Positions 34,895 to 64,000 of a stretch of DNA of 64,000 nucleotides are shown here, piece by piece. The DNA lies in NCBI GenBank assembly GCA_025890175.1, contig JANPYM010000008.1, forward strand, positions 1,465,650 through 1,529,649, written 5' to 3'. The stretch's first letter is position 1; every line of letters starts with the position of its first letter. The stretch is from Ciborinia camelliae. Its lineage: Eukaryota > Ascomycota > Leotiomycetes > Helotiales > Sclerotiniaceae. Made by a program: the position numbers and the translations under genes. The notes under the pieces were generated by a model. It saw nothing but the letters and a program-made list of their open reading frames with translations. It ran no database searches and was not told the DNA's origin.

Positions 34895-37187
34895 TATCGC
34901 TGGATCGTATGATATTGTAAATATTGAATTGTAGTTGTTGGTAGAGGGAAAAGGATACCGCGCAGAGGATTTTAAGAGAAGACCATGCAATTATGAATGT
35001 CAAGGAACGATCGCCGAAGAGGGTCCCACGCAATTTCGTGAAGATTTTCGTGTGGATTCGAAGAAAGATTATCGATACGAGGGATTGTCAAGAAATCGAG
35101 AAATTCAGATTGGAGAAGCTTCAATTTGGAGGTTTGCTCGAATATAATAAGTGGTTCACAGTGGGATGAATGAGCCGATGAATGAGGTATGAGGTAAGAC
35201 AATGGGTATGTGTATGTATGGTACCTTATTAATAGTAAATGGATCCTCTTGAGGAGTGTGTCACCGTGTCGTAAAGAATCGAAGAAACACAATTGGCATG
35301 AGAAAATGAGTAGTTTTGAAGAAGAGGAAGAAGAAGAATTGAAGTTATACGAGGTATTATTGCATTGAGAGTACGGAAGTACCGGTATCTCTCTTTTTCT
35401 CTCTCTCTCCTTTTAAATTGTTGCAGGTAAAGTAAAGAAGAACTAACTGGGTGGAGATGATTTCAGAAGTGTGAGAACTTTAGAAGGCTGAGTCGTCGAA
35501 CCGTGCACCTTTTTTAAGAGCTCTGAATTGGGTCTAGTTGAAGGAGAAGATCTGTGAGATCTACACGAGGTTCCGTTTTGATTGATTTTAATATGGAAAC
35601 GAAACTTTGTAATATATTGTTAGCGGAGGAAGGTTTTTGATACAAATACCACACCTCCAGGTACGGCCAGATGAAGAGTTGAAGAGGAGGAGAGGAGGAG
35701 AGTTGGAGAGTTGGGAAAGTTGGGAAGAGTTGGGAGAGTTTGACCAAAGAGGATTCACACCTTTAAATTACCTAGGACGGGCTAGGAAAAGTCGATGTCG
35801 ATGTGATTGATTGATATGATACAGAGTGTGTTTGCTGAATAGGTGAACGAAGATGAGTAAGTTGATTTAAAGGTTGGAGAGGCACAGCTCTGTGACAACC
35901 AAACCTTAGAAGATAGATGAAGTTGAAGAGAATACAAGAAGAGGAAAGTTTACTTTACTGTACTGGATTTTAACTCTTGGACTGTCTGTCTTGTGCAGCT
36001 TTGAAGTGTTGGTTGATGAGTTAGTTTCCCACTTGCGCGTTCGAAGAACTTTGAGTTTGATATCTAGGTATGATAAGTTAAGGTAGATAGTAATACTGGA
36101 TAGATTAGATACTCGAGTAGGCACTGAGTAGGGACCTAGGTAATCTATTCAATGAATCTTGAGACGCAGAATATCAGTACCAGTACCAGTACCTTCACTA
36201 AAAACTCCCGGTCTTGAATGATAGTGATTTCAAAGAATACCGACCTAGGTACCCAATCTTACACAAGGAAGTTTTATATATATCATTTACTTTGTCCCGC
36301 GTGTGGATTTGAAATGAGTGATCAACGAAATGAATAGGTAGGTAGGTATGATTGAAGCGATTGATTGTCCTTTAACATCCATAGATCCTGTTGATTTCAT
36401 TTTATCCCTTTCATCCATGCTCACCTCCAGCTGGGCAATATCAACGATTCAACCAGCAGTATCTACACCTACGTAACCACCTTACCTGGGTAGTATTTCC
36501 TCCACGAATAAGTCAAGGTAAAGGCGGCAATGACGGTGAATATGAAATATGACAGGCTGAGTTCCAGTCTGGGCTGCTTTGAACTCTACAGCTCGGTCCG
36601 CTGGCTTTCCAAGTTCAACTACCAAATTCGAATCTCCAGCCGTACTATCAAGACTCAGGAATGGATTGGCATGAATATATGGGATGAATGATTGATGGAT
36701 GGATCCATCCATGAATCCCTCCACCTGTATAAATATACTTGCCTGAGGTATGATGACTCAGCCACCTCACTTAGATTCAATAACCTTCAAAGGTACCCGT
36801 ACAACTGGGTAATTTAACCTTCAAGCCCTTCCAAACTCCCTTCTGGATTTCATGGTGCCCTCTCAATAATAACGACCTGATACAAACCTACATAGTCAAT
36901 AACTTCTCATATTTTCCGAATAATACCACGCGCACTCTAAATATTCCAGCCAGCTCTCATCCCCACACAAAATCATAATTGTGCATCCCGAAGCAAACAG
37001 ACACCTTGGTGGGGCAACCGCGAGAACTAATTCTACAACTTTTGAGTAAGTCTGCAAGTGATATTTTGAAATTCTTCACCAGATACGGTCCTTCGTTGAT
37101 ATTGCTGGTCGAACCAAATCTAAAATTACCTTGTCACTTAGCCACGGTCGTCGCTACCGGGACCCCTCAACCATACACCCCATCGGA
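34895..37187. other. 2.3-kb divergent spacer, rho2 / nst1
   Basis: Contains the promoters and long leaders of rho2 (minus) and nst1 (plus). Purine-rich stretches lie near 35300-35420 and 35690-35740. A GTACCAGTACCAGTACC run and CCTAGGTA motifs lie at 36120-36260. Open frames here look like leader sequence rather than genes. Confidence 0.45.
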
Positions 37188-40100
37188 ATGCCCGCAAACC
37201 AACGAAAGCATACAAGTCAGTCATCTTACTTGCCGAATTCCAGAAATACTACGAAGCCGTTGACGAAGGATGCTGGAAAGTTTGTAACTGTACCCAAGAA
37301 TTCTAGTACGAGCGATTCATCCGAGACATCTCTCACCATGGCACAAACTACAACGAAATCAAATGGGCAGTTACCCACCCCTCCCACAAATATCAATGGC
37401 GCACCCCCCACAGTAAATCGCAAAAAGCAGAAACGAAGGGCGAAACAGGCTGCTAGAGCAGCTGCGGAACAGGCACAAAGCTCTCAGATAAGCGGCGGAC
37501 CATCTCCTGGCGATGTTAAGAGACAAATGCAAGAACTGGAAGCACGCTTCCGCGAAACAGGGCTAGATGAGCAATACGACGACGACGAACAATTCGACCC
37601 TGCGGACGATAATGCGTATGACAGCGATGAGGAAGGCGATGCATACTCCGGCTCCTATGGTCATGATGGCTCCTCAACAAACGGCTATGCGATCCCTGCA
37701 ACGAACTCTTCGGGCAAGAAACAGAAGAAGAAAAAGAAATCGAGGCCTTCGCAGTCGGACAATTCTAACCATGCACACCACGGTCCAAATGGTTCATCAC
37801 ACAATCACGTATCGCTACCACTTCCTCCTTTACAATCCCCTCCGAGCATGCAGAGAGGGCCGGGTATTTCAAAAGAGAAAATCTGGAATACATCATCGCA
37901 AGAAGAACGTGAGAGGATAAAGGAATTTTGGTTATCTCTTGGAGAAGATGAGCGCAAATCCTTAGTCAAGGTGGAAAAAGATGCTGTGCTAAAGAAAATG
38001 AAAGAGCAGCAAAAGCATTCTTGTAGTTGCACAGTGTGTGGTCGCAAGCGCACTGCTATTGAAGAGGAACTAGAAGTACTTTATGATGCATACTATGAAG
38101 AGCTCGAGCAATATGCGAACCACCAAGGAGGCGACGTTCCTCCGCCAATGATGCCACCTCCACGTCGATTTGGCGCCATGAGCGGCTTACAGCCACCTAA
38201 TCGTCTACCTCCGGTTTTTAATGGGCAGCAACCATCAAGGGGCAGAATAGTAGAGCAACTTGGCGATGACGAAGATGAAGAGGGCGATGAGGAGTACAGT
38301 GAAGATGATGCGGATGAAGATGATTATAGTGATGAAGAACCGGAAGAGATTCCAAGAAGTCATGCCACAGATTTTTTTAATTTTGGTAATAGTCTCACAG
38401 TACAGGGTGGAATTCTTACCGTAGCGGATGATTTACTCAAAAACGACGGAAAGAAATTCATTGAAATGATGGAGCAACTAGCCGAGCGTCGCATGGCTCG
38501 AGAAGAAGATGCGAAAGAACAATATGCTAATGCGAATTACGGTCACCCTCCAAATGGTTCCATGCATCCACATTCTCACGGACACGTTCATAATCATCCA
38601 CCGCCGCCAGAAGAAGACGATTATGACGACGAAGAGGATGACGAAGACGAGTATGATAGCCAGGAAGAGGACTATGATGAAGAGGAGATGGTACGTTGAG
38701 GATATTATGGTTTATCATTCCTGTACTAACACGGAACAGGATACCATGACCGAAGAACAGCGAATGGAGGAAGGAAGACGAATGTTCCAGATATTTGCTG
38801 CTCGGATGTTTGAGCAAAGAGTTTTGACAGCCTACAAAGAAAAAGTCGCGAAAGAACGGCAGCAGAAACTTCTCGAGGAACTTGAGGAAGAAAGTCGAGC
38901 GGATTCTCAAAAGAAAGCCAAGAAGGCTAAAGATGCGCAGAAGAAGAAAGAAAAACTTCTTGAGAAGAAGCGGGCCCTGGCCGAAGAAAAGGCTAGAAAG
39001 GAAGCCGAAAGAGCGGCCGAAGAAGCTTCTCTTCGAGAAATCGAGGAAAAGAAAGCAGAGGAGCAGAGGCTAAAACGAGAGGAGAATCGAAAAAAGAAAG
39101 AGGCACAGAAAAAGGCCGACGAAGAGGAGCGTGTGCGCAAAGAAGCTGAAAAGCAACGCCGACTTCAAGAACAAAGAGAAAGACAGGCCGAACAAGAACG
39201 AAAGCAACGTGAAGCCAAAGAGCGAGAGAGAAAGGAGAAAGAGGAGCTGAGGCGCCAAGCACTGGAAGCGAAGGAGGCCAGAGACAAGGAGGCTAAGGAA
39301 CGAAAGGAGAAGCATGAGAGAGAAAAGAGAGAAAAGGAAGCGAAAGTTAAGGCCGACAAGGAAGCTAGAGAGCTACAGAAACGTGAAGAACTTACCGCTC
39401 AACAGGCTGCTGTTCAAGCCGCTCAATCTGTTGCGCAAGCTTCAAGACGCCCAAATCAAGTACCTACGCCTAACTTAAGTCATGTGTTAGCTTCACCTCA
39501 CATCCCGGTTGCCATTCCTGCTGTTCCTAAAGCACCGACTCCCATCAAGCTTCGGACAAATTCTCAGCAAGAAAATCATTCAACCATACCTAGAACTCCT
39601 TCTGGTAAATATCAGAGCATATCACCAAATTCCATAACTCCTCTACCAAACAGTCCCGGCCCAATAGGTCCACCTGGAAAAACGCCGATACAACATCACC
39701 TCCTACAACACCCACAAGCTACTTCTCCGATACATTCAACGCTAAAAGGACCCCCAGGTATTCCCCAGAGTCCATTTGCTGGTTTGCAACCCATGCCTGG
39801 AGTGTTTCAGCCAGGTTTGCCAATGGCTCCCCCTGGTTTTGGCCGACCACATCATGATCCAATGTTCCCACATCAGCAGCCAATGGGTAGCCAATATCGT
39901 CCTTTGCCGGTTCCCAATGGGGGCATGCCACCATTCCAATCCGGATTTAATATGCATCATATGCCACAAGGTAGAGGCTTCCCTATGCATGGACCACCAG
40001 GATTTCCACAACAGTCTCCAAACGGTATTGGTAGTATTGGACAGCTTTTTGGCGCTCCGAAAGAAACGCCCCCTTCGCAGGCTCATTCTCGAAATCAATC

Positions 40101-40914
40101 CGGCTCCTTTGATGGATTGTCATCGACGACACAAGCTCAGCCTATCGCGAGACCCGCACCAATTGGAAGACCATCTAGTATTGTTCACGGCACTCGTCGT
40201 GGTGATATATCTAATAGTAGTGAATCTGATGAATTAAATAAACATCTTGGTAGTAGCGCTTTACTAGATGATACTGATGAACCCCTCAATATTGGAGTTG
40301 GCGCACGACGCTCGAGTGCAGCTCCCGGTAACCCTAATAGGCAGAGTTTCCTACCACCTCTGTTTGGTATGGATCGTTCGGACCCAGCAGGCATGATGAG
40401 CTCTTTTGGCACATGGGGTGGACCACCAAATCCATTTGGTTCCTCTTCCCTACCTGGATCTAATGGTTTTGGCGGAGGATGGAATGCAAATCTCAACATG
40501 AGCAACTCTTTCGGGATGCCGCCTTACTTTCGCCCATCTCAGCCTCGTTCCGTAGCTGTGAGATTGATGATCTGTATGGCTTGCCAAAACCTTCAGAGTT
40601 CGACTCAGGACGGATGGTTAGATATTGGTGCTATCAAGAATGAGGTTGCTCTACTTAACCCTCCTAGGGAGGAGCCAGTTTCTGAAAAGGAATTGATCGA
40701 TATTTGTGACACTGAAGGAAATCAAATGAATGGTGGTGGCACCTTTGAGATCCGTCCAGATTCCAATGGCAAACCCCAAATACATTATGTTAGCGATTCA
40801 ATACCTCATGACTTCCGTTCTGTCGGCGCTCCAGGCGAAATCGGTAGTCCTATTAGTGGAGGAGCATCTAGACATCCAGGACCTCCTGGCCGAGCTCCAA
40901 TTGGTGGTTTTTAA
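37188..40914 (+). CDS. nst1: stress response protein Nst1
   Basis: Two exons, 37188-38690 and 38740-40914, giving 1225 aa. The 49-nt intron has a CTAAC branch sequence and an AACAG acceptor. The frame is open upstream of 37188 but lacks an earlier ATG. The N-terminal third has the Nst1 core: [49 protein letters not shown] and [13 protein letters not shown]. Acidic Glu/Asp stretches follow. A very long charged coiled coil (Lys/Glu/Arg-rich, about residues 540-740) leads into a Pro/Gly/Met-rich low-complexity C-terminal half. Nst1 is a cytoplasmic protein linked to salt tolerance and, in yeast, to splicing factor Msl1. The CxCxxC pattern could bind metal (inference). Size and order match filamentous-fungal Nst1. 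Confidence 0.92.
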
Positions 40915-41222
40915 AGGATATATTTAGCCTAGCTTCTTCTCGCTATCAAAATCTCGTGTTTCAAGCATTACACGTTCGGAATTTTGGAGCTTAATCCCTT
41001 GTGTCTGTGTGTGATTTTTCTCATGACAATGTAAGAATTGCATGGAGGCATCTCTCAAACGAAAAGTCAAAAAGTGGCCCTCTTCATGAATTCGCTTGCG
41101 TTTCTTCGTTCTTCTTAATGCCGGTCGGTCTGGTGTGGTCTCCCTTGTTGATTGGGGAGGATGAATCAATCAATCAATACCTAGTGGCGTTATTACGCTG
41201 AATTATTTTCGCCTGCTTCATA
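40915..41222. other. nst1 3' region
   Basis: Contains the probable 3' UTR of nst1. No coding frame of its own. It ends where the duplicated block begins. Confidence 0.5.
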
Positions 41223-42975
41223 AAGAAGAGGGGAATATCGAATACCAATATTTTTTTTTAGTGTTCTACTACTGTCTGTATATGTTCTTGCTCGGCTGTG
41301 CTTTTTTTTTGTGTTGTGTTGTGTTATGTTGTGTTGACTTGCGTGAATTTTGATGCCCCTTGCTTGATATATCCCTCCTTGGCCGTGATCTTCTGAGGAT
41401 TGGGTGGAATTGATATTGTGCCCTTCTCACACCCATTCCTAGGTACCTAGGTATTATATAAATATATTTCGCTAATTTGGAATATAGAATTCGAGAACCG
41501 GGTTTATTTAGTACTGGTTTTTTTTTCACTGGTTTGTTGGATATATATATGCATGCTACATATATCAAGTTTTATGTGTATATGTACTTTCGTGGAATTC
41601 GAACGATGCACACAGACACACACACACACACATATATATACCCCAAAGTCAAGTTTTCTTCATCATCATGATGATAAATGATCGGGAGCACTTGGAGATA
41701 TTCGCCCCCTCCCCTTCTTTCAAACTTCAAACTTCAAACTTCAACCCCCCCCCCTTGCATCCTATCATACTCTTCTCGATATCATATTACGCCCCTCCGC
41801 TCTTTACATGCGCGGGTTTTGATTGTAATTGTACTTGTCTGGAATAGAATGAAATGGAATGGAATCATACTTGCTTCTTTGCGTATGCTTCAATAGGTAG
41901 GTACCTAGGTAGGTAGGTATATATGGTGTTTTGAAAATATCTTGGGTTGGAATCGTATTGTTATTGTTATTGTTATTGTCGGCTCGGTTGGTCGGTTGGT
42001 TGGTCATCGTTTGTTATGGTTATTTATCATTAGTTTATATTGCTTGGTTTTGTTTGTCCTGGACTTTTTGTTGGTTTATTTATTGAGCTAGGCTGGGCTG
42101 GGCTGGGCTGGGCTGGGCTGGGTTGGGTTGGGTTTGGGATTCTGGGCTTTTTTTCCTTTATATATATAGGTAGGTATGGATGGATGGATGGATGTAAGTA
42201 TGGATGGATGGTAGTAAGTTTTCTTTTGTTCTGGAAGTTTGGTATTTGTGTTGATAGATAGGTAGAGGGAGGTATTTATCTATCTATCTATATATGACGG
42301 GAACTATATGTCAACAACTTATCTTATATCTGGGCGCCAGATGAAGATGAAGATGGAGATGGAGATGAAGATGAAGGAAGGAGAAGGAGAAGGGTAAGGG
42401 GAATGGGGATAGCATGGGTGGGTAAAGGGATGGGGAATAAATAATTGCCTATCTAGATACCTGGGTAGGTACTTGTTTATTGATGCTCGCTTATATATTT
42501 ATGTATATATGTATATATATATATACATACCTAGGTAGTATTTATGGGTATGAGACTGGATGGATGAGATCCGAGATAGAGATAGAGATGCCAGATTGAG
42601 GACGGAAGTGGGAATTAGGACGCGAGATGCGAGATGAAAGATGAAAGATGAGAAAGTTTGATGATGTATGTATGTACATGTATTACATACGTATATGAAG
42701 ATACTAGGCTAGGCTAGGCGGGTTGGGAAACTATCTTGGGATGGAACGCAAGCGAGGAATGTAAAATAGTTATGGTAATAGTCATGGTAATGGTAATACC
42801 AAAGTTCATCTAGAAACAATGTTGGTGTGCATGAGTTGTAGTGAAGTGATTCATATGATTTGCACTGGAAGTTGCACTGGTAGAAGGAGATTTATGGGGA
42901 TTGATTGAATGGATGGATGGGCGGGGGCGGAGATGGGGATGGAGGAGTGGAGGGTGAGGGATAGGGGATAGGGGA
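41223..42975. repeat. duplicated 1753-bp block, copy 1 (left of gap)
   Basis: Identical, as far as I compared, to 42986-44738. It is non-coding and rich in simple repeats: TGTGT runs, a CACACA/TATATA tract near 41616-41640, a GGCTG array near 42091-42121, GGATGGAT and GATGAAGATG runs, and CCTAGGTA motifs. It ends exactly at the run of Ns. Most simply read as the end of one contig that overlaps the start of the next. Confidence 0.93.
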
Positions 42976-42985
42976 NNNNNNNNNN
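42976..42985. other. assembly gap, 10 Ns
   Basis: Ten consecutive Ns, a nominal gap size, placed between two identical flanking blocks. Confidence 0.99.
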
Positions 42986-44738
42986 AAGAAGAGGGGAATA
43001 TCGAATACCAATATTTTTTTTTAGTGTTCTACTACTGTCTGTATATGTTCTTGCTCGGCTGTGCTTTTTTTTTGTGTTGTGTTGTGTTATGTTGTGTTGA
43101 CTTGCGTGAATTTTGATGCCCCTTGCTTGATATATCCCTCCTTGGCCGTGATCTTCTGAGGATTGGGTGGAATTGATATTGTGCCCTTCTCACACCCATT
43201 CCTAGGTACCTAGGTATTATATAAATATATTTCGCTAATTTGGAATATAGAATTCGAGAACCGGGTTTATTTAGTACTGGTTTTTTTTTCACTGGTTTGT
43301 TGGATATATATATGCATGCTACATATATCAAGTTTTATGTGTATATGTACTTTCGTGGAATTCGAACGATGCACACAGACACACACACACACACATATAT
43401 ATACCCCAAAGTCAAGTTTTCTTCATCATCATGATGATAAATGATCGGGAGCACTTGGAGATATTCGCCCCCTCCCCTTCTTTCAAACTTCAAACTTCAA
43501 ACTTCAACCCCCCCCCCTTGCATCCTATCATACTCTTCTCGATATCATATTACGCCCCTCCGCTCTTTACATGCGCGGGTTTTGATTGTAATTGTACTTG
43601 TCTGGAATAGAATGAAATGGAATGGAATCATACTTGCTTCTTTGCGTATGCTTCAATAGGTAGGTACCTAGGTAGGTAGGTATATATGGTGTTTTGAAAA
43701 TATCTTGGGTTGGAATCGTATTGTTATTGTTATTGTTATTGTCGGCTCGGTTGGTCGGTTGGTTGGTCATCGTTTGTTATGGTTATTTATCATTAGTTTA
43801 TATTGCTTGGTTTTGTTTGTCCTGGACTTTTTGTTGGTTTATTTATTGAGCTAGGCTGGGCTGGGCTGGGCTGGGCTGGGCTGGGTTGGGTTGGGTTTGG
43901 GATTCTGGGCTTTTTTTCCTTTATATATATAGGTAGGTATGGATGGATGGATGGATGTAAGTATGGATGGATGGTAGTAAGTTTTCTTTTGTTCTGGAAG
44001 TTTGGTATTTGTGTTGATAGATAGGTAGAGGGAGGTATTTATCTATCTATCTATATATGACGGGAACTATATGTCAACAACTTATCTTATATCTGGGCGC
44101 CAGATGAAGATGAAGATGGAGATGGAGATGAAGATGAAGGAAGGAGAAGGAGAAGGGTAAGGGGAATGGGGATAGCATGGGTGGGTAAAGGGATGGGGAA
44201 TAAATAATTGCCTATCTAGATACCTGGGTAGGTACTTGTTTATTGATGCTCGCTTATATATTTATGTATATATGTATATATATATATACATACCTAGGTA
44301 GTATTTATGGGTATGAGACTGGATGGATGAGATCCGAGATAGAGATAGAGATGCCAGATTGAGGACGGAAGTGGGAATTAGGACGCGAGATGCGAGATGA
44401 AAGATGAAAGATGAGAAAGTTTGATGATGTATGTATGTACATGTATTACATACGTATATGAAGATACTAGGCTAGGCTAGGCGGGTTGGGAAACTATCTT
44501 GGGATGGAACGCAAGCGAGGAATGTAAAATAGTTATGGTAATAGTCATGGTAATGGTAATACCAAAGTTCATCTAGAAACAATGTTGGTGTGCATGAGTT
44601 GTAGTGAAGTGATTCATATGATTTGCACTGGAAGTTGCACTGGTAGAAGGAGATTTATGGGGATTGATTGAATGGATGGATGGGCGGGGGCGGAGATGGG
44701 GATGGAGGAGTGGAGGGTGAGGGATAGGGGATAGGGGA
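42986..44738. repeat. duplicated 1753-bp block, copy 2 (right of gap)
   Basis: Begins right after the Ns and repeats 41223-42975 at a constant offset of 1763 bp. The simple-repeat landmarks recur at the same spacing. The sequence then continues past 44738 into unique DNA, as expected for an unmerged contig overlap. Confidence 0.93.
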
Positions 44739-47700
44739 TGGAGGATGCGGGATGGAGGATGCGGGATGGGTAGTTTGAAGTTGCGAGGTTGATGAATGGA
44801 TGGGTGGGTAAATGGATAGGTCGATGAATGGATGGGTGGGTAAACGTATGGATGGGGGAATGGATGGATGGGTTCTTGGTGCCCGCTTCGAGTGAGAGGT
44901 AATATTCAATATTGGGGATGGGTAGATGAGACGAGAGGGGAGGAGAGCAGAGGAGAGGGATTCATTCATTCATATAAAGACAGATATAAAATGGAGGAGA
45001 GTTTGCGTCATGATTTGTTAAATACCTGAATACCCAAGGTACCTAGATAGATACAATCACGAGAACCTTCTTTTATTTCTCATGACAATCTTCACCATCG
45101 AATCTCCATATCCATCTATTGCATAATTATTGTCTAGAACTTAAAGGAGAGAGACTACTTCCCCACAACACGATTTACAACCAAATCCCGTAAACCCCAG
45201 GATTTCCTCAAGAATCAAGATGTATATATATATATATGTATATGCTCGCGTATTTCCAATTTCTCATTGTGAGTGAGTATAAGGATTTTTATTCTCGTTG
45301 ATGGGGCAGGGGGAGGGTTCTCATTTCTGTATATGAGTTGAGCTGAGTTGAGGAGGTACCTGCAATGAAGCTCTTTGAGATATTCAGATTAACTATCTAT
45401 TACCAATAACTGTCGCTGGGATTTTTAATATACAATTTTAGTTGGTTCTTAAGTCTTGACTACGGGATGGGTGTTATATAGGTATTATTTGAATAGATAC
45501 CTAGGTAGATAGATATAGGAATATATATCACAACCCCTTCCTTCCAGTATGGAAATACCGTACTGTACTGTCATGTCTATATTTCCCGTCAATGAAATTC
45601 CCGATGAGATACGTAGGTATCTATTATATTAATAAGATATACAAAACTTTTCCATTTCCATAACCCAATTTCAATAGCTCGATATCAATATCTATATTAA
45701 ATAAAATACAGCTAGCTGGCTATACATCTACCATCCAGATATACAGTATCGACATTCCAAATTCCAAATAACTTTCCCCTCGCTCGATGAGATAGATCCT
45801 GGAAACCAGAATGCGATTCAATTCGATTCCTACATGTCATGTTGAATACTAGGTAGGTACGGGATGCAAGATAAGCTTAATACCCAACTTAATATCTAAC
45901 AAAACAAGACAAAAAAACAGGAAGAAGGATGAAGGATGAAGGATGAATAAACATTATATGTACCTACCTACCTACCTACTCATCTACTCAATTAACAAAG
46001 ATTCGTTTCGCTCTTAAATCCTGCGGTTATCTACTACCTAGGTACCTACCAAAGCTAAGCGGCGTCTTCAAGGTTGTCTGTCCAGGTACTTATCAAGGTT
46101 CTGAACCGAGGCTATTTTATAGTACCTAGGTACTGTAGGTAGGGAGGCGGATATTGTATCTTACTATCTTACTATCTTACGACCTATCTTACAGCTTTGG
46201 AGTCCCTCCCTAGCTTTAAGAAATGCAGGCAGCGCTGGTTTGTTTAACTATTTGGTATCTACTATAGTCCCTAAGATAGATACCCAGATAGGTACCGGAG
46301 CAGTTTTTCCTTCTCCAAAGCTCTAAGGTTCTAGGGAGGAAATGAAATTGTAGGTAAGAATAGAAGAAGAGATCGGGGATGAGATAGTGTAGATACCTTA
46401 ATATCAGAGTACCGTATATTTTCTTATTATAGGTATGATCAATTCGATGATCGATTCGATGATTGATGATAATTTACATACTGTCATACTGTACTGTCAT
46501 ACCGTCATACTGTATTTTCTCTCGCTCGGAGTTGTTACCAAATTGGCCAAACCCTTTCATGGAACTTGGAACCTCGGAACCTTTTAGTAGGTTAGGTTGG
46601 TTGAAGAATTGAATGGGATGGAAAATTGCTAAATTTGGAACGGGACGGGGAATACGGTACTGGTACTGCCCAAGTAACAGGGGTGGATTTAACAGGTCAC
46701 GTGGGGACTAGACTAGCGTAGTATTAGCTCAGGACCTTGCTTATAAGCAGTCCCAGTTTAGATCTTCAATCCACATCCCTTTCCGTCGAAACTAAAGTAT
46801 TTTCTGCCCACTGTACTGTACTGTTTGTTGTACGGTTGTACTGTTGTACTTCAGTCCAGGGCTGTCTGTAGGTTATACAGTCACTTTGTTGGAACCTGGG
46901 TTGTACCTATTTCCCCTTAAATGGTAACGATCTCTCGGAGAAGGACTAAAGACTCAAGACTAGATGATAGGACATAAAACCTTGGAACCAAACCAACTCT
47001 TCGAGAACTTTTCGAAGGATAAATCTCGTTTCTTTCCTTCCCTTCCCTTCCCTTTCCTTCCCTATCCTTCTCTCACTATTCCATCTTCCGCGATCCTTCC
47101 CGGAAGTAAAAGTTGCATACAAACATACATACAGTCATTACTAGGTATCAATACCTAGCTCCCAAGGTATATTTGAAGGATTCCTTCCAAGTCAGTCCTG
47201 TAAGTTGCAAGCTTGTAAGCCTGTAAGCTTGTAAGCAGCTGGTTGACCCGGTGGCCAAATCGGAAGCTAAGGACTCGACCATGCCACATGCAGAGATTTC
47301 CGGTCGACTAGGGAAGAATTGTAAAATGTATAAATAATGGGTGGTCACTGTACTCCGTACCTATGTAACCATACAATATATATCCACGTGTGATACCGGG
47401 GTTGTAAATTATTTTCCATGGGATTATTATGGAGCAGGATGGAATCGAAGAAATGGAATGGATGATGGATGAATAAATAGCAAATGATAAGTAGAAGACC
47501 ATTTGTTGTTGTTTAGTAGGTAGTATAGTGTCAGTACCAGTAATTGGCAGGAGGATTTAGACATTCTCATCGAGATTCTCATCTCATCTCATCTCATATT
47601 TTTAATCGATAGATTGTGAGATCATGAGATTAGATTACCTTGGTACCGTGGACTGCGGTGAAGCTTAAGAGCTCTATCCTTCCTTCCTTACCTACTAGGT

Positions 47701-49047
47701 TAAAACTTTTAGAAGAGGAGATTTGAGTTTATAGTACCTAAGATTACATAACAACATACTGTACTACCTATTGAATACAGCTTACAGGTCAATGTATTTT
47801 ACGACTCACGAATCAAGTAGTCGATTTCTATTTCCATAATTAACATGCATTGCGCCATTTTATTTTATTTTACTTTATCTTATTTTATCTCACAGATCAA
47901 GTTCCAATTCCCCAAACCATTTCTTCAACAAACAGCATGCAGCATCGCCACAAGACTGCATGTTCTAGGTATGTATCTGTATGCATGGGGGCGAGAGGAG
48001 AGACCAATCTTCAAGGCGTTTTACGGTATCACAAGTATTACTCCCTCCCTCAACCCCTGCAAAAGCAACCACAACCGTATTCCTGCAAGGCTGCGACGCT
48101 GCGGCGCGAATGTGACATCGCTTCGCTCCGTGGTGGATTGTTCGCTAGTGTCGTAGGTAGTTGACTAGTTGACTAGTCACTCTGGACCAGCCTCCCAGGA
48201 CACGCTTGACGGCTTCCCTTCCTGAGCAGTGAGTCGCGAGGACGTGAACTGCGGCCCCCGCCCGGTTTAGACGGGAAAAAAACTGGAAAAAAAAGAGGTG
48301 GACGAACGAGAGGGAAAAAAAGACCGGGTGGTAAGTGGTGAGTTGTAACTTGCAAGGTTATCACTTATGTGGGAGTTTACGAGGGTTGCATGGGGGGAGG
48401 GTGTGCCAAGATGAGTTGAGCGGACATTGGACCAATGGGGGAGGGGGTGGAGGAGGGATTATGGAGATGCAGATACCGGTACCTGTCGTGCTTGGAAATT
48501 TGGAGGATCTCGAGTTCGATAAGAAGATGAAGAGTACGTACCGCCGAGACCTAGCTACCTAGTTACTTGAATGAGGGTCTTGTTTTGGTTTTCTTTTCCC
48601 TCCGGTCTTTCCGCTACATACATATTATCATCAATTGCCATCTACGAGTTGGGAGAAAATCTACTTGGGCATTTCCTGGTGCTACGTCTTTTTCTACCTA
48701 CATACTTACTGTGCTGCCTTTTTTTGCGATTTTGCAAAGTATCAAGTATCTTCTTATATTTATCTTTTCCTATCTTTTATGTGTATACAGTACAGTGTGT
48801 CTGGTCAATTCAAATATGCTTAGAACAATATTCTCAACAGATGGCAGCAGGTGAACTGGAAAAAAGAAAATCAAGTGGTCGACTGATACATCGAAAAGAA
48901 CTACTGTATCGGTGTATCTACTATTTATGATACTTTTCGAAACTCCTTCAAGTCGAGGGTTAAGGTTATTTCCGTCGTACAATCATTAGGAATTACTGTA
49001 TCAGATTTCAGATTTCGGAAAAGACATACATAAATAATTGAACGTCC
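44739..49047. other. 4.3-kb low-complexity spacer
   Basis: GGATGGATG runs (44740-44880) are followed by AT-rich DNA with many TACCTAGGTA-type motifs and repeated TACTGTACTGT words near 45555, 46480-46515 and 46810-46850. A local GC-rich island (about 48040-48330) is listed separately. No convincing gene; frames such as 47845-48156 and 48571-48930 lack domains. Confidence 0.45.
48040..48330. other. GC-rich island in AT-rich spacer
   Basis: Composition changes abruptly to GC-rich, with words such as GGCTGCGACGCTGCGGCG near 48089-48107 and a GCGGCCCCCGCCCGG stretch near 48251-48265, then returns to poly-purine and AT-rich DNA. No coding frame was recognised. Confidence 0.5.
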
Positions 49048-50864
49048 ATGATGGATGCACAAGCCAGTGCAACACAATATCCCCCCGGGTATCTCGAAAA
49101 TTATAACGGACACAAACTCGTCGCTACTTGTATCAGTGCCATTGTGCTGAATGTCTTTTTCGTCTTGGCGAGATTTACTTCGAGATGGATTCACAAGACA
49201 CCAAGGGGATGGGATGATTTTCTTATGATACCTGCGTTGATATTCTCGGTGCTGCTTGCTGCTCTGGGTCTTGGTATGTATATCTATTTTATATGTTAAT
49301 GATTTTTCTCAATCGTCCCGTCCCTCTTATTTTTAATGAATTCATATATCTAATAAAACCCCCCCTTCATTAGTCGGTATAAATTACTGCGGAGTAGGTT
49401 ACCACATCGAAGCCATTGAACAAAGCGACCCCTCCAAACTCATCCGCCTCTCCAAACTTCTCATCTTCTTCCCCGCCACCTACGCCGTCGCCGTTACATT
49501 TCCCAAACTCTCCATCTTGGCCATGTACCTCCGCATTTTCACCGTGCCCTTCTACCGCATGGTCACCTACGCCGTCATCTACATCCTCGTCATCTCCTCG
49601 ACCATCCTCTTCATGATGATGCTCTTCCAATGCACGCCCGTGGATTATTTCTGGGACAAATCCATCCCCGGGGGAAAATGTCATTTGGATATTGAAAAAT
49701 TGTTTTTATATGCCAGTTTACCGAATATCATTACCGATGTCGTTATGTTAGCTATCCCTTTACCGTTTATTTTTACCCTCAATATGACGAGGAAAATGAA
49801 GATTGGATTGGGTCTTACATTACTGACCGGCTCGAGGTAATTTCTTTTTCTTTTTCTTTTCAAATTCCATCCCCTCACTCTCTCCCATTCACCAATCTCC
49901 AAGGCCAATCCTAAATTAAAACTAACACCAACACCCCCAAAGCGGTCTCGCAACATCCATCCTTCGCTTCGTGGCTTTCGCCCAACAATCACTGTTCCCG
50001 GACACATCCCGCTCAGCCGTCACCCTAGCACTCTACACGATCCTCGAAACCAGCATGTATATAATAGCAGCGTGTCTCCCGGCCTGTCGACCGCTCTTCA
50101 ATTTTCTGCGTCACCCCTCTCGAAACATGCAACAGAGCGATCCCAAAGACACGCGTCATTCTCCCGATGATGACGGAAGACACGTTCGCCATGATCATGA
50201 TATCGAACTCCAACGCACGACCACTCATGACGAGAGTGAACATCGAGGTCGCTATCATGGTTTCGGTGATGGCGTCAGAGGTATGCAGGGTAGATTTAAG
50301 AGGTTGGGCTCGGATAATGGGGGTTTTCAGGGTGGGAGGAGGGATTCTCCTCTTTTTCCTTCGCCTGGAGAATCTCCATTGCCCTCGTCCTACACCTCGC
50401 CATTTTCACCCCAATCCGCACCACCCAATCAAAGCCCAAATCCCTCTCAATCCCTAGGCAAAAATCCTGGCCTCACATCCTCTCCCGAAACTACCAATCC
50501 GTCTACCAATCCCAATCCAAATACCAATACCAATAGCAATAGCAATATCAAAACCCAAACATTCCCAACACCACAATCACAACCCCAACCCCAACCCCAA
50601 CCCCAAATCCAAAAACAACCCTCCATCTTCCCACACCCCGAAAGATCCCCATTCCCAGTATCCACTCCCGGCAACCCCATCTTCACACAAGCTCCCGAAC
50701 GTGTACATATCGCCGATATGCAACGGGAAGATTGTGGGGATGAACATCAACGTGGTGGACATCCAGGAATCGGACTGGGGAAAGGGGGATATACGAATGC
50801 GGGTTCGAGTGCGAATGTGGGGGGGATCAGAATTGAACGCGAGTTTAATGTGCTTTATGATTGA
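49048..50864 (+). CDS. Pth11-like rhodopsin-fold integral membrane protein
   Basis: Three exons, 49048-49273, 49374-49836 and 49943-50864, giving 536 aa. The first 290 or so residues hold seven hydrophobic helices. The typical fungal SAT4/rhodopsin-domain motifs are present: FFVLARFTSRW, RGWDDFLM, the CGVGYH start of loop two, FPKLSILAMYLRIF, QCTPVDYFWDKS..GGKC and DVVMLAIPLPFI. These are the Pth11-related receptors of Pezizomycotina, some of which sense surfaces or hosts. There is no CFEM domain at the N-terminus. The C-terminal 240 residues are cytoplasmic, rich in Pro, Asn, Gln and Ser, with short repeated NPN/QPQ words. Both introns restore the frame inside conserved motifs. Ligand and pathway are unknown. 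Confidence 0.88.
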
Positions 50865-61727: not shown

Positions 61728-64000
61728 ATGGCTTTGGTGCCCCCTGAGCGACGTGATACGAGATCATCTATGTTTCTCGATACTCCAAGGAGGACTGCTC
61801 GATATGACGGCCCAGAAGTTCCGCAAATCTCAAGAGTTAAAACACTTGCACACAATAAATTGTTTGATCGCAAAGCAACATACCGAGATCAAAACCCATC
61901 TGGTCGGTCACCAAATGCACCGACCGGGCCTGCTAATGGTATACCATCACTCAAACTACACCCCTTTCACAATTGTGATAACACTGAAGGCGAAATCTCT
62001 GTGGAGGTGGCCGTACTTTTCATGCATGGGGGTGACGAGGATAGATCGCAGTGCTCAATTTTCTCGACTAAGGGCACAGAACAATATTCGGGATCGCCAA
62101 ATATAGCTGTTGGCCAAGCAGACCAATTATCTGAAATCAACCTTGATCGGGGGCAGAAAGAAATCTTTCAAGCGAAAATATCTGGAATGTTAGAATCTCA
62201 GGCAAAGAAAGATCCCACCGATGCTCAAAAACAGCGAACGGCACGATTTGACAATAAATTGCTTCAATCAAGCGGCAAACACATTGAAAAGACTGAGTCT
62301 CCAAGCATACCGCTACACCCTAAGGCAGAGCCTAAGGAAGTGAATTGGCTCAAACAAGATGACATGCTTCCATCGTTACTTCCCGAGGGGCGGGTCATGG
62401 GATATGGGTTTGATTTGGGTGCTCTTAGTTATAAAATTGATTTCAAAGCTGCTGCCAGCATATTTGCCAAGGAGTTCAACAGAATAAGGGGCTGCTTTCA
62501 CAAACCAATTGTGTTGATTGGCCATGGGTATGGAAATATAGTTATCGAAACTCTATTATGCAGCAGTGATGAAGAAAGTAAAGCTTTTAAAAGGCTCACG
62601 ACTGCTGTCATTCTTTTCGCTCCTCCGACATCAGGATCAGCAGAGCTAAACAATTGGAGCACGGACAAGATGAATCTACCGAAGTCCGCCAGTGAGAAAG
62701 CATTCGTCGGTCTAGGAAAGAATTCTGAGGAGCTCAAGAACATATGGGAAGAATTCCGTTCCCTAGCTAGTAGATTGGATCCTTATATTTGCATGTACCT
62801 TCCAAAGCAATACAACATCGACTCAAAAGTCAACACGAAGGATATCAGCGATGAGCCGGCCAGAGATACTGCAGCGGATCCTCAGCACGATAGTTTTGAT
62901 GTTGTTCAAACCTCATCAGGTTTTGGTGATATCGCTAGCTTCTCTAGTACGAAAGACAAAACCTTTTTAAAGTTAGCAAGCCAAATTGTCAGGTCAATTC
63001 AAGTGTGGCAATTATTAGACGCTACTTTACGGGGAGATGGGACTCTTTTGAGAGGACTTATACGTCGATCTGTCAATATAAATTTGGCGGGAAAGACTGG
63101 CAAAACTTCCCTACTCCTATCGGCGCAACGTAAGGATCCCGCCCTCATGAAAATACTACTTGGAGAACGACAACTTGATATCGATCACCAGAATAATCAA
63201 GGTGACACAGCTCTCCATCTAGCTGTGACGAATAACGCTTCTCAAGACACGAAAAGAGAAATGATTCTATCACTTCTGAGAGCTGGTGCCAATCCCGAAA
63301 TTCGAAATCACGACAAGAAGAAGCCAAAACAGCTGGTCTCTAAGAGTGATATCGGCATAAAAAATATTTTTACAAAAGATCGACCATTAGTGGAGGGGCC
63401 TCTAATCCAGCCAAGGAAGCGCTTGGAGAAATCAATACCCCCAGGCCGGGAAGGAATAAAGGCCTGTCAGTCCGTCGAAATGTTCGTTACGGAGATGTAT
63501 TATACCAAGGACTCGAAAACGCTTGTTCCAGAGCGACATTGGACCATGTATAAAACTGTTTACGATCTCATCTATGCGCAACGTCCTGGATCGGTGGAAA
63601 GTATGCTGGACTCGGAACGTTCAAAGAATATCCAAGAATCAGAGAAGCCTCATTGCCGATGGTACCATATCCCAGAGAATAATGTAAGTGGTCGATTTTC
63701 ATTGTCGTAGTATAAATATCTGACCGTTTTCCTTGCTTGACTAGACGCTGGGTGCGCGTAATTATGATTGTAGCTAGTTTCATTTCAATCCACTCGATTT
63801 TGTTGGAAATAAGCTTTCAATGCGCAGAGTCAATTTGAAGGTTGGGATGCAGTTCTTAACAGGAACTTTATCATTACTCGCTACAATGCTCAGGTTAATT
63901 TTAAACATGGGGTTTCTTATTTTGTTTTACAAAAGACAAGCAAGGCTCAATGTCTTAAACTTCTCAAGGTCCAATCGGTTACCGAATCATACAGAATTTG
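61728..64000 (+). CDS. hydrolase-like / ankyrin / CorA-like protein (partial, runs off the window)
   Basis: Exon 1 (61728-63683) encodes 652 residues and ends at a GTAAGT donor. The next exon probably starts at 63828 and continues past the window. Residues about 85-400 have the shape of a SesB/DUF676-type alpha/beta hydrolase (VAVLFMHGG, RVMGYGFDLG, PIVLIGHGYGNIVIETLL), but the nucleophile position is Gly267 (GHGYG), so catalysis looks lost. Residues about 430-545 contain ankyrin-like repeats (NNQGDTALHLAV, LLRAGANPEIRNHDKKKP). RWYHIPENN at the exon end is the opening of the CorA-like domain that closes many fungal ankyrin proteins. Such mosaics occur among fungal NLR-related surveillance proteins, but no NACHT or NB-ARC motif is visible here. 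Function is unknown. A second small intron at about 63893-63941 is possible. Confidence 0.75.

Follow-up and report, generated by a model that had tools for sequence, protein, structure and literature searches.

The exact 1753-base duplication downstream of the NST1 gene is, on the sequence evidence, very probably an assembly artefact, in which the ends of two contigs overlapping by 1753 bases were set side by side with a fixed gap of 10 N and were not merged. This reading, put forward in a preliminary description, is supported by two identical copies that lie flush with the gap, by 17 simple-repeat tracts that are alike in both, by the finding of no further copy in the assembly, and by overlapping ends at five of nine other 10-N gaps (one of the five overlaps being poly-A and one imperfect). 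The window, by which we mean the whole 64,000-nt stretch of DNA analysed, comprises bases 1465650-1529649 of a 2.65-Mb contig belonging to an assembly of 46.2 Mb in 27 contigs. Positions below are those of the window unless they follow an L number, which denotes another stretch of the same assembly.

The duplicated block and its gap

The region consists of the following features.

41223..42975, no strand: left copy of the 1753-base block, probable end of the left contig (0/1753 mismatches to the right copy; assembly search)
42976..42985, no strand: nominal gap of 10 N (N run; gaps of the same size elsewhere in the assembly)
42986..44738, no strand: right copy of the 1753-base block, probable start of the right contig (identity to the left copy and assembly search)

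A base-by-base comparison within the window gave 0/1753 mismatches between 41223-42975 and 42986-44738, at an offset of 1763. The 10 N at 42976-42985 form the sole N run of the 64,000 nt, and both copies are flush with it, the left one reaching up to the first N and the right one starting just past the last. The preliminary description had claimed an exact duplication at this offset, with a left copy ending at the Ns and a right copy beginning right after them, and the comparison bears it out in coordinates as well as in identity. The limits of the match are set by the Ns themselves, which precede the right copy (limit at 41223) and follow the left copy (limit at 42975/44738). Only two families of direct repeats of at least 40 bases are present in the window, namely the 1753-base block and a GCTGG array inside it.

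The order of left flank, block, gap, block and right flank is also what would be expected of a real tandem duplication of very recent date, about 1.75 kb long and lying downstream of NST1, in which no microsatellite has changed yet and an unassembled junction was left as the 10-N gap; a graph assembler would likewise end both copies of such a duplication flush with a gap. However, the total lack of differences over 1753 bases, including the 17 tracts, demands a very recent event, and we consider this explanation very unlikely. Complete identity also bears on the idea that two haplotypes, or two nuclei, of a single strain were assembled side by side, haplotype difference being the cause that passages of Kelley and Salzberg (2010; PMC2864568) treat for such errors in diploid genomes. 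Copies lacking even a single-base difference were not separated by an allelic difference inside the block, however, which makes this origin extremely improbable.

Copy number of the block across the assembly

Assemblers may write shared segments of a graph into several paths, and the block could in principle be a dispersed repeat, such as a mobile element, attached to both contigs as a segment of this kind. Further full copies were nevertheless not found in the assembly: a search of all 46.2 Mb placed the full-length block at two positions only, both in the window, while 75 of its 77 matches are fragments of microsatellite no longer than 61 bases, the search skipping simple repeats and its repeat counts being lower bounds. 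Both ends of the block occur exactly twice in the assembly (the first 24 and the last 26 bases), and a word spanning the passage from the block into its right flank occurs once. A dispersed repeat was rejected on these counts, and its probability is exceedingly small.

We also scanned 319,361 bases, made up of 37 assembly stretches (L009-L045) and the window, for direct repeats spaced within 5 kb. No other exact direct repeat in them reached 200 bases, and all others of 100 bases or longer belong to arrays, in which offsets do not exceed 119 bases and no exact match is longer than 188. The 1753-base match is therefore far beyond chance. The same result counts against a genuine tandem duplication, in that no comparable exact repeat occurs elsewhere in the scanned bases.

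Simple repeats and the contig ends

As the preliminary description held, the block is very rich in simple repeats: it contains 17 tracts, the same in both copies, versus 0 to 7 in bins of 1753 bases taken from the window only and clear of both copies, all counted by a rule of our own. Microsatellites favour slippage and breaks, and the microsatellite richness of the block would in this respect suit a tandem duplication. The preliminary description went on to see in the simple repeats the reason why the ends were not merged. This second part of the claim is weaker, since both contigs pass through the tracts identically, with equal unit numbers; the tracts inside the block thus did not halt assembly and are not in themselves a reason for the missing merge. 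It is only the left end that lies in an array, the following feature.

44690..44770, no strand: tandem array of 7/14-base GGGGATG-type units, continuing beyond 44738, where the right copy ends (rows 44698-44770 and 44690-44769)

Because this array continues beyond the right copy, the left copy breaks off inside it; a tandem array is a usual stopping place for assembly. The start of the right contig, at 42986, lies outside any simple repeat or tandem array of this type, a point that counts against an unmerged overlap.

If the duplication is an unmerged contig overlap, two contigs with ends overlapping by 1753 bases would have been placed adjacent to each other in one scaffold, and a fixed gap of 10 N would have been inserted between the overlapping ends in place of a merge. 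The left contig may have stopped inside the 7/14-base array, after which the joining step would have left the overlap as it was. Non-merging could have come about in either of two ways: one path of the assembler may have ended on a graph segment where the next began, or the two contig ends may each have been extended into a single gap. When an overlap cannot be placed, some assemblers insert a fixed gap of 10 N, a habit that would fit the gap at 42976-42985. The locus would then most likely hold the block once, as a presumed single copy in the cell, and would be 1763 bases shorter than shown.

Other 10-N gaps in the assembly

Gaps of the same size were surveyed over 264.4 kb of this assembly, consisting of 25 stretches of 10 kb (250 kb), of which 19 were chosen around microsatellite matches of the block and 6 were taken at arbitrary places, and of 12 stretches of 1.2 kb hand-picked from listed runs of at least 15 G or C. 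The 10-kb stretches contain four gaps of exactly 10 N, all of them in the chosen 19; the 6 arbitrary stretches have no such gap. Five of the G/C-run stretches contain 10-N gaps; the other seven comprise six without N and one (L040) in which a longer N run is truncated at the stretch boundary. The nine gaps are as follows.

L016 4544-4553: 10-N gap, exact end overlap of 31 bases
L019 2003-2012: 10-N gap, exact end overlap of 23 bases
L024 8256-8265: 10-N gap, exact end overlap of 18 bases
L028 5187-5196: 10-N gap, exact end overlap of 10 bases, poly-A on both sides
L044 594-603: 10-N gap, exact overlap of 3 bases, imperfect longer overlap
L037 631-640: 10-N gap, end overlap of at most 1 base
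L039 549-558: 10-N gap, end overlap of at most 1 base
L041 614-623: 10-N gap, end overlap of at most 1 base
L042 559-568: 10-N gap, end overlap of at most 1 base

The overlap is thus exact in 4/9, imperfect in 1/9 and lacking in 4/9. In the imperfect case (L044), inspection by eye shows the left end repeated in the opening 46 bases of the right side, apart from the length of a C run. At cut points drawn at random from the 25 stretches of 10 kb, a control unmatched for low complexity, exact overlaps reached at least 18 bases in 110/17,576 cases and at least 10 bases in 224/17,576. The longest exact overlap among the nine gaps, 31 bases, is far below 1753, which also counts against the reading as an unmerged overlap.

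A run of 10 N is a nominal gap in this assembly, often but not solely placed between overlapping ends. The idea that every such gap has overlapping ends failed, and 10 N alone does not mean overlap because four of the nine other gaps have none; a 10-N gap can accordingly hide real sequence, as a tandem duplication with a missing junction would have it. Against that duplication stand the five of nine gaps that do lie between overlapping ends. Since the ends overlap at L016, L019, L024, L028 and L044, short false duplications probably occur throughout the assembly.

The four gaps without end overlap (L037, L039, L041 and L042) directly adjoin runs of G or C of 18-24 bases. The assembly thus seems to break at long G/C runs, an observation made at places picked for such runs, with 6/12 stretches holding a long run but no gap. 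Longer N runs were also observed. One of exactly 5000 N (L013 2075-7074) has no end overlap and may represent either a further nominal gap size or a stretch of sequence that was withheld. Another (L025) shows no end overlap; 3418 N of it fall within the stretch, which ends before its right side is reached. Runs of this kind may mark scaffold gaps or withheld sequence.

Neighbouring genes and content of the block

The block lies between two recognised genes.

37131..40914, + strand: stress-response gene NST1, made up of two ORFs that overlap in different frames (first ORF: PF13945, E 6.3e-64; start approximate)
49042..50864, + strand: fungal rhodopsin-type membrane protein, next recognised gene downstream (PF20684, E 3.2e-35 on 49340-49837; stop-to-stop ORFs, limits approximate)

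The two NST1 ORFs are probably joined by splicing. The best named homologues of the second are from Monilinia fructicola (91 percent identity), Botrytis sinoallii (90 percent) and Sclerotinia borealis (87 percent), with two further proteins ranking among these. NST1 thus marks the window as fungal, probably from the Sclerotiniaceae or a closely neighbouring group. The NST1 stop ends at 40914, leaving 308 bases to the block, which is intergenic. A gene in the block was rejected, there being no ORF of at least 120 aa (starts ATG, GTG and TTG) that overlaps 41223-44738 in the ORF list. Among the stop-to-stop ORFs from 44700 on, three on the minus strand, repetitive and 104 to 115 aa long, extend into the final portion of the right copy. 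A structured RNA was likewise rejected, as no Rfam family matched at its gathering threshold in 40900-45100.

Elsewhere in the window, a 660-aa ankyrin-repeat protein is encoded at 61728-63710. With 7999 candidates scored, it gave nine matches including its own record, and because no more than two of these are closer relatives (at 68 and 49 percent identity), the gene is perhaps restricted to its lineage.

Consequences for users of the assembly

As shown, NST1 is separated from the next recognised gene by approximately 8.1 kb; merging the overlap would reduce this to approximately 6.4 kb and would move all later coordinates on the contig by 1763. Counts of copy number, repeats or synteny made from the assembly would include a false duplication. 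The duplication matters solely to users of this assembly, whose remaining 10-N gaps merit equal scrutiny; ten have been seen, including the window's own.

Comparison with known assembly errors

With high probability, the duplication is an artefact of a well-known kind and not biology. Its nearest counterpart is the error class "duplicated overlapping contigs", as given in passages of Kelley and Salzberg (2010; PMC2864568): the facing ends align here with 1753/1753 bases identical and flush with a gap, and what separates the copies is the 10 N at 42976-42985. Where those passages treat haplotype difference as the cause, the present overlap is exact, and the likeness drawn here is one of sequence layout. 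A second parallel comes from a passage of PMC5368935, in which the SOAPdenovo2 scaffolder is reported to insert gaps between overlapping contigs. The layout is not identical, as the gap described there splits one contig in two, but both cases have in common a gap written at a contig overlap in place of a merge.
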